NCBI RefSeq assembly: GCF_025717045.1
Contig: NZ_JAOVZN010000005.1
Coordinates: 124,001-188,000 of the forward strand
Direction of reading: 5' to 3'
DNA: 64,000 bases
DNA from: Flavobacterium sp. SH_e
Lineage (GTDB): Bacteria; Bacteroidota; Bacteroidia; Flavobacteriales; Flavobacteriaceae
The number at the start of each line of letters is the position of its first letter. Position 1 is the stretch's first letter. A program made the translations under genes and the position numbers. Below are positions 29,257 to 44,917 of this stretch, in pieces. The notes under the pieces are model-generated. The model was not told the origin of the DNA, did not search any database, and worked only from the letters and a program-made list of their open reading frames with translations.

Positions 29257-29290
29257 TCAAAAAAAAACCTTCCAAATATTTGGAAGGTTT
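29257..29290 (-). terminator. ilv attenuator terminator
   Basis: aaaccttccaaa / tttggaaggttt, a stem of about 11 bp with a tight AU-rich loop. On the minus strand it is followed by about nine T residues. It lies 23 bp after the leader-peptide stop and 30 bp before ilvD. Confidence 0.9.
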
Positions 29291-43820: not shown

Positions 43821-44678
43821 CTAAAGAACCATTTTTTCAATTGGGCAAACAAGAATTCCCTCTGCTCCTACTTCTTTCAATTGATCGATTACGTCCCAAA
43901 AAGTATCTTTATCAATCACAGAGTGAACACTGCTCCAACCTTCTTGTGCCAACGGAAGAACCGTTAAACTTCTCAAAACTGGAAGAATTTTTCCAACAGC
44001 TTCGATTTTATCATTTGGAACGTTCATTAGAATATATTTTGAATTTCTAGCTCTTAAAACTGCTTGAATTCTGAATTTTAAAGTATCAATGTGTTTTTGG
44101 ATTTCTGGAGAAACTTTTGGAGAAACTGCTAAAACAGCTTCACTTTTCAAAATAACTTCAACCTCTTTTAAGTTGTTTTTGAATAAGGTGCTTCCGCTTG
44201 AAACAATATCTACAATCGCATCTGCAAGACCAATATTTGGAGCAATTTCAACAGAACCAGAAATTTGGTGAATGTCGACAGTTAAACCAAATTTACTGAA
44301 ATATTCGTTAACAGTGTTTGGATATGAAGTTGCAACACGAAGATTGGCTAAATCTTGAACTGAATTGTATTCGAATGTTTTAGGGACAGCTACAGAAACT
44401 TTACATTTTGAGAATCCCAATTTTTGAACTACTTCAATTCCTTTTCCTTTTTCTACCAAAAGATTGTCGCCAACGATTGCTAAGTCTACAACTCCATCAA
44501 TTAGATATTGCGGAATATCAGAATTTCTCAAGTATAAAACTTCAAGAGGAAAATTTGAAGCTTCAGCTTTTAATTGGTCGATTCCATTGTTGATTGAAAT
44601 ACCGCAGTCTTTTAGAATTTGAATGCTGTCTTCGTTTAAACGACCAGATTTTTGAATTGCAATTTTTAAAGTACTCAT
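43821..44678 (-). CDS. hisG: ATP phosphoribosyltransferase, long form
   Basis: A 285-residue enzyme committing ATP and PRPP to histidine synthesis. The first two domains (about 1-205) carry I-Q-K-S-G-R-L near residue 8, V-D-L-A-I-V-G-D-N near 66, and V-D-I-V-S-S-G-S-T-L near residue 165, the PRPP phosphate loop. The C-terminal domain (about 215-285) is the ACT-like regulatory domain of long-form HisG, so histidine feedback inhibition is likely and no HisZ is needed. First structural gene of the operon, preceded by the his leader and attenuator. Confidence 0.96.
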   Translation of the reverse strand: MSTLKIAIQKSGRLNEDSIQILKDCGISINNGIDQLKAEASNFPLEVLYLRNSDIPQYLIDGVVDLAIVGDNLLVEKGKGIEVVQKLGFSKCKVSVAVPKTFEYNSVQDLANLRVATSYPNTVNEYFSKFGLTVDIHQISGSVEIAPNIGLADAIVDIVSSGSTLFKNNLKEVEVILKSEAVLAVSPKVSPEIQKHIDTLKFRIQAVLRARNSKYILMNVPNDKIEAVGKILPVLRSLTVLPLAQEGWSSVHSVIDKDTFWDVIDQLKEVGAEGILVCPIEKMVL

Positions 44679-44730
44679 TTTTTAGTTGTTTGTTTGGATT
44701 AATAGTTTGAGTACAAAGAGAGTTAGAATT

Positions 44731-44764
44731 AAAAAACCCGTTTGATGTACTCAAACGGGTTTTA
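44731..44764 (-). terminator. his attenuator terminator
   Basis: On the minus strand aaacccgtttga pairs with tcaaacgggttt around a 5-nt loop, followed by a T-run. It lies between the his leader peptide and hisG. Confidence 0.92.
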
Positions 44765-44790
44765 AAATATGATGATTTACATGCATACCA

Positions 44791-44850
44791 TTAACACATC
44801 GCTTGAGAGCAATAATGTAAATGATGATGATGTAATTGAATTGAAATCAT
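44791..44850 (-). CDS. hisL: his operon leader peptide (HHHH)
   Basis: A 19-residue frame too short for the usual search. It reads M-I-S-I-Q-L, then four consecutive CAT His codons, L, another CAT His, Y-C-S-Q-A-M-C and a TAA stop. Five of 19 codons are His. It lies 35 bp downstream of a -7 box and 26 bp before the terminator at 44731-44764. On the RNA, CUCAAGCG within the S-Q-A codons (44800-44807) can pair with CGUUUGAG (44750-44757), one half of the terminator stem. This is the expected antiterminator: a ribosome stalled at His codons leaves it free, while one at the stop codon covers it. Confidence 0.9.
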   Translation of the reverse strand: MISIQLHHHHLHYCSQAMC

Positions 44851-44885
44851 GATTTGTTTTGTTTTTTACTTCTTTGATTCGGTTG

Positions 44886-44917
44886 CAAATATACTAGATA
44901 AAATAATTAAAAAGCAA
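44886..44917 (-). promoter_or_regulatory. Promoter of the his operon leader
   Basis: -7 box TATATTTG (44886-44893), then 21 bp, then TTG at 44915-44917 as a -33 element, all on the minus strand. The 306-bp gap 44679-44984 is occupied by this promoter, the leader peptide and the attenuator. Confidence 0.65.

Follow-up and report, generated by a model that had tools for sequence, protein, structure and literature searches.

The closest described system is the his attenuator of Escherichia coli and Salmonella (RF00514), in which a leader peptide with seven histidines in a row lies directly before hisG and is followed by mutually exclusive protector, antiterminator and terminator hairpins. The his operon of Flavobacterium sp. 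SH_e and its relatives shares the His-codon leader, the mutually exclusive pairings and the position directly before hisG, but the leaders here have 3–6 His rather than seven in a row, the antiterminator is only 8 bp long, a Shine-Dalgarno sequence is lacking and the promoter is of the Bacteroidota type, and a conserved helix connects the 5′ arm and loop of the terminator to the region before hisG. Beyond the enteric case, some attenuators were reportedly predicted in Bacteroidetes/Chlorobi by Vitreschak and colleagues (2004). Before their own case in bacilli, Naville and Gautheret (2010) knew of leader-peptide systems only in Proteobacteria and Actinobacteria (PMC2965389); the hisZ and hisS leader peptides of bacilli likewise combine a His-run leader with a terminator outside the Proteobacteria, but differ from the present element in genes, phylum and sequence (PMC2965389).

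A 2021 transcriptome of F. psychrophilum is more directly relevant, reporting strong clues for leader-peptide attenuation ahead of amino-acid operons and naming hisG and pheA among the 5′ elements conserved in Flavobacteriaceae (PMC9723704). The hisG element of F. psychrophilum—structured, upstream of hisG, conserved in Flavobacteriaceae and without an Rfam hit—is almost certainly the same element as the one described here, whereas the main text of the paper gives no peptide, pairings, geometry or class-wide range, and no counterpart of the strand that we call segment 5 (PMC9723704). Because leader-peptide attenuation had already been suggested in that paper, the attenuator mechanism is not new; it is of a known kind, and the additions made here are its class-wide distribution and segment 5, whose helix with the terminator (3:5) in Flavobacteriaceae and their nearest relatives is previously undescribed. 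An earlier note on this DNA had stated that no experimental case was known in Flavobacterium; a literature search found none, nor any experimental test of the attenuator, although the note had missed the suggestion made for F. psychrophilum (PMC9723704).

The window, i.e., the whole stretch of 64,000 nucleotides analysed, holds the complete operon on the minus strand. The elements follow in the order promoter, leader ORF, 12-bp hairpin with U's, and hisG, the leader being separated from hisG by 112 nt with the intrinsic terminator in between:

44678–37051, minus strand: his operon hisG-D-C-B-H-A-F-IE, complete within the window
43821–44678, minus strand: hisG, first gene of the his operon
44917–44915 and 44893–44886, minus strand: promoter, recognised by sequence, with a TTG (−33-like) and TATATTTG (TAnnTTTG −7 box), respectively
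44791–44850, minus strand: ORF of the histidine leader peptide (MISIQLHHHHLHYCSQAMC), 19 codons plus TAA
44799–44812, minus strand: protector hairpin UUGC..GCGA, alternative partner of segment 2, from single-sequence folding and the RNAalifold consensus
44800–44807, minus strand: segment 2, CUCAAGCG, 5′ strand of the antiterminator, by its pairing with segment 3
44750–44757, minus strand: segment 3, CGUUUGAG, common to antiterminator, terminator and helix 3:5
44734–44762, minus strand: intrinsic terminator hairpin (3:4), AAACCCGUUUGA-GUACA-UCAAACGGGUUU, with a U tract to about 44729
44705–44715, minus strand: segment 5, UGUACUCAAAC, with its partner GUUUGAGUACA (44756–44746) in the terminator 5′ arm and loop

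Checked on the minus strand, all coordinates in the earlier note are right to the base, and the sequence agrees with its description of a 19-codon frame with five His between promoter and terminator; what the note missed is the protector pairing, segment 5 downstream of the terminator and the window's second attenuator (ilv). The leader peptide reads M I S I Q L H H H H L H Y C S Q A M C, with His at codons 7–10 and 12, i.e., four consecutive ones and, past a single Leu, a fifth. The Bacteroidota-type promoter recurs, TAnnTTTG being found in the 75 nt before the leader ATG in 44 of 105 genera, as against 6.5 expected in shuffles. The His codons are maintained through exchange of CAT and CAC (404/40), and the run is best read as a codon signal. 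In contrast, the conserved Gln-Ala is best read as a signal in the RNA, since segment 2 persists where the leader frame has been shifted or stops early (G053, G054, G137, G013 and G129).

A His leader lies upstream of hisG in all 79 Flavobacterium loci that have upstream sequence. When a frame with at least three His in seven codons is taken as the definition, the Flavobacteriaceae score 106 of 109 genomes, almost every one representing a genus of its own, where dinucleotide shuffles predict 2.5 and the opposite strand yields 2; for the Bacteroidia the figure is 64 of 74 genomes, compared with 2.8 predicted by shuffling and 6 on the opposite strand. With the stricter definition of a short ORF having at least four His in seven codons, 55 of the 74 Bacteroidia retain it, compared with 0.2 expected from dinucleotide shuffles, and His is the sole strongly enriched residue upstream of hisG, every other amino acid reaching 10/74 at most. 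The His-rich ORF at hisG is not due to chance. The earlier note, which had read the locus correctly, thus understated its distribution: the histidine leader and its predicted competing hairpins are kept across almost the whole class Bacteroidia. Candidate leaders were also seen in 22 of 39 further Bacteroidota upstream regions from outside the class, a count made without a shuffle control and indicative only. Some class-level His leaders have no clear U-tract terminator (L240, L238, L242, L250, L259 (family f41), L220, L205, L221 and L257), and at some of these a hairpin spans the leader stop codon (e.g., TTCCTCCTGATTGGAGGAA and ATCGCCGATAGGCGAT); they possibly use a different, non-terminator mechanism.

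The leader region folds far more stably than its shuffles (z −7.5, 0/200). The earlier note had proposed an alignment as the test of its reading, and 106 of 109 Flavobacteriaceae genomes do conserve the His run jointly with the antiterminator strand and the terminator. Pair counts over an alignment of 65 genera give 98.7% paired and 18 double-change cells for the terminator (3:4), and 96.5% paired and 10 double-change cells, with none in slid controls, for the antiterminator (2:3, CUCAAGCG:CGUUUGAG), so that the 8-bp pairing drawn earlier between 44800–44807 and 44750–44757 is both present and conserved, and the compensatory changes that it was expected to show are found in the terminator and, in small number, in the antiterminator. 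The covariation of 2:3 is based on few changes because segment 2 hardly varies.

Predicted folds describe three states. When segment 3 has emerged and segment 4 has not, the antiterminator, which includes a small nested hairpin, is the predicted fold (−16.6 kcal/mol; consensus −17.9), and otherwise the terminator; with no ribosome, CUUGC:GCGAG, the protector in the RNAalifold consensus, conceals segment 2; and with a ribosome on the stop codon, the terminator alone is left. The 8-bp antiterminator, at −8.9, falls far short of the terminator (−16.4) in stability, which requires a kinetic switch. Other families follow the same logic with quite different sequences, having GGCUUACC...GGUAAGCC terminators and GGUAAGC across or beside the leader stop codon, and in 21 of 41 genomes outside Flavobacteriaceae the complementarity of the terminator 5′ arm to the leader exceeds that of shuffles (p<0.05). 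The antiterminator excludes the terminator and has its 5′ strand inside or beside the leader ORF, as in an attenuator.

The position of segment 2 relative to the leader codons is nearly constant: counted from the first base of the run's final His codon, it starts after 16 nt (10th–90th percentile 15–16), and it ends 3 nt ahead of the leader stop codon in 88 of 102 genera. Given the general knowledge of ribosome footprint size, these spacings would place segment 2 just outside a ribosome stalled at the His run and under a ribosome at the stop codon; they fit the ribosome as the switch. Conservation, covariation and geometry support the earlier reading, and ribosome-mediated histidine attenuation of transcription is very probably the best explanation for the control of the his operon. 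An alternative is that the His-rich ORF is not a sensor and that a T-box, a riboswitch or a DNA-binding repressor regulates the operon; such systems control his genes in Gram-positive bacteria (PMC9413887), but they would account neither for the His-specific codon enrichment nor for the ribosome geometry, and we consider this reading highly improbable. Even with a lax cut-off, the leader strand matched no Rfam T-box or riboswitch, and the Rfam His_leader model (RF00514) gave a sub-threshold match over its whole length (33.1 bits, E 0.00096; gathering cut-off 49 bits).

From the observed sequence, conservation, covariation and geometry we infer stalling, termination and a response to histidine as follows. 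The input would be charged tRNA-His, read by the ribosome translating the leader. With ample histidine, this ribosome would reach the leader stop and cover segment 2, 3:4 would form and RNA polymerase would halt at the U tract. If histidyl-tRNA were scarce, the ribosome would stall at the His run, masking the protector strand and freeing segment 2, which would pair with the emerging segment 3 and let the polymerase read through into hisG. Were no ribosome present, segment 2 would stay in the protector hairpin and the terminator would form. In the read-through mRNA, segment 5, just before hisG, would then be a further possible partner of segment 3.

Segment 5 (UGUACUCAAAC) is the complement of GUUUGAGUACA, which comprises the loop of the terminator and the upper part of its 5′ arm. 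Among 95 genomes with room for it, the 3:5 pairing exceeds 95% of shuffles in 78 and all 200 in 66, and segment 5 pairs better with its own loop than with foreign loops (median 100%, mean 84%). Helix 3:5 is 94.8% paired with 88 double-change cells, the double changes affecting 7 of 11 pairs, and its covariation of 0.418 compares with 0.219 when shuffled and at most 0.083 when slid. On a HisG tree—approximate, being built from short sequences—28 double compensatory changes were inferred, as against 1–3 for slid partners, with 32 losses compared with 74–108 for slid partners. At its 3′ side, segment 5 stops about 16 nt short of the hisG AUG (interquartile range 15–18.5, n=71), and a spacing of 14–16 nt is found again in other families. 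Besides the home family it occurs in no fewer than four others, all with CCCGUYUGAG-type leaders (families f1, f2, f22, f24 and f39, with f21 added by eye); the idea that every his leader of the Bacteroidia has it was rejected, since it is confined to these. Helix 3:5 itself is well supported by these comparisons.

It is improbable that segment 5 was left behind by template-switch (quasi-palindrome) mutagenesis or serves as a DNA operator, rather than acting as a functional RNA strand. Mutation can create inverted copies of hairpins, and segment 5 lies near the terminator; however, a by-product would be expected neither to keep a fixed distance from the AUG nor to persist over about 70 genera amid poorly conserved flanks, with many independent compensatory changes, and a fixed protein site would be hard to reconcile with a loop whose sequence changes. 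As an RNA strand, segment 5 is present only in transcripts extending past the terminator and should not affect termination, which suggests that it adds a post-transcriptional control of hisG.

One such role is precedented by the trp attenuator RNA of Sinorhizobium, rnTrpL, which acts in trans. In Sinorhizobium meliloti it offers the parallel of an attenuator RNA that may have a second, post-transcriptional role (for related work, see PMC7298713), but rnTrpL is a Trp leader with other targets in trans. A terminated leader RNA might here pair through its terminator loop and 5′ arm with segment 5 of a read-through hisG mRNA; the loop belongs to the pairing and varies with segment 5, yet the cis partner is always there at a higher local concentration, and we regard action in trans as unlikely. 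A search of the genome for further targets with the exact segment 5 found no second copy, which would leave hisG as the sole target of this kind.

The fixed distance between segment 5 and the AUG points to translation, and we give an even chance to the reading in which helix 3:5, together with a pairing of segment 5 to the hisG start where present, forms a translational layer gating hisG initiation after the terminator. The strong covariation of 3:5 and the recurring AUG spacing would be in keeping with it, as would the finding that translation initiation in F. johnsoniae is tuned by structure from −20 to +20 (PMC6847099). At the present locus, GUACUCA of segment 5 can pair with AUGAGUAC of the hisG start. 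In genomes whose hisG starts with AUGAG, segment 5 seals the start region by a median of 3.8 kcal/mol, compared with 1.7 in shuffles, the effect being weak elsewhere. As a general explanation this start-codon pairing was rejected: it exceeds chance in 29 of 76 genomes, nearly all with AUGAG, and 3:5 holds well beyond them. In all 79 Flavobacterium, hisG begins ATGAGTAC, with Ser always AGT and the third base of Thr varying, a pattern that suggests selection on the start region as RNA. Against a translational layer, 3:4 surpasses 3:5 in stability (median −16.5 vs −13.8), so 3:5 may be short-lived, and its sign may differ among genomes, 3:5 freeing the AUG in the AUGAG clade and merely crowding the site elsewhere. 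We propose, tentatively and at somewhat less than even odds, that the whole is a dual-level attenuator, in which segment 3 would choose among the antiterminator, the terminator and a downstream strand gating hisG translation.

The his leader is accompanied by others. Within the window, an Ile/Val-rich leader (MQISIIITSVVVINVIHTSASGML, 29388–29314, minus strand) with a terminator at 29289–29266 (minus strand) lies directly before ilvD (29226), and elsewhere in the genome a Phe/Tyr-rich leader (MASNRFYFSNNFYFFFSRSQDCAMVI) lies upstream of pheA and a Trp leader (MRTILNNTWWWNNLRQTS) upstream of trpE; all three have a hairpin and then a T run downstream. From these leaders, attenuation looks like a common strategy in Flavobacterium sp. 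SH_e. The sole RNA family reaching its gathering threshold in the window is an Rfam DUF805 RNA motif (15136–15069, minus strand, 77.8 bits).

Attenuation by a leader ribosome requires close coupling of transcription and translation, which seems little tested in Bacteroidota; with leaders upstream of hisG in 64 of the 74 Bacteroidia genomes sampled and a near-constant ribosome geometry in the home family, coupling becomes directly testable, and the his leader element merits an Rfam family of its own. The additional covarying helix would extend a textbook mechanism by a new part. If the dual-level reading is true, a single ribosome signal would govern read-through as well as initiation at hisG, and this in a lineage whose ribosomes work without Shine-Dalgarno sequences.
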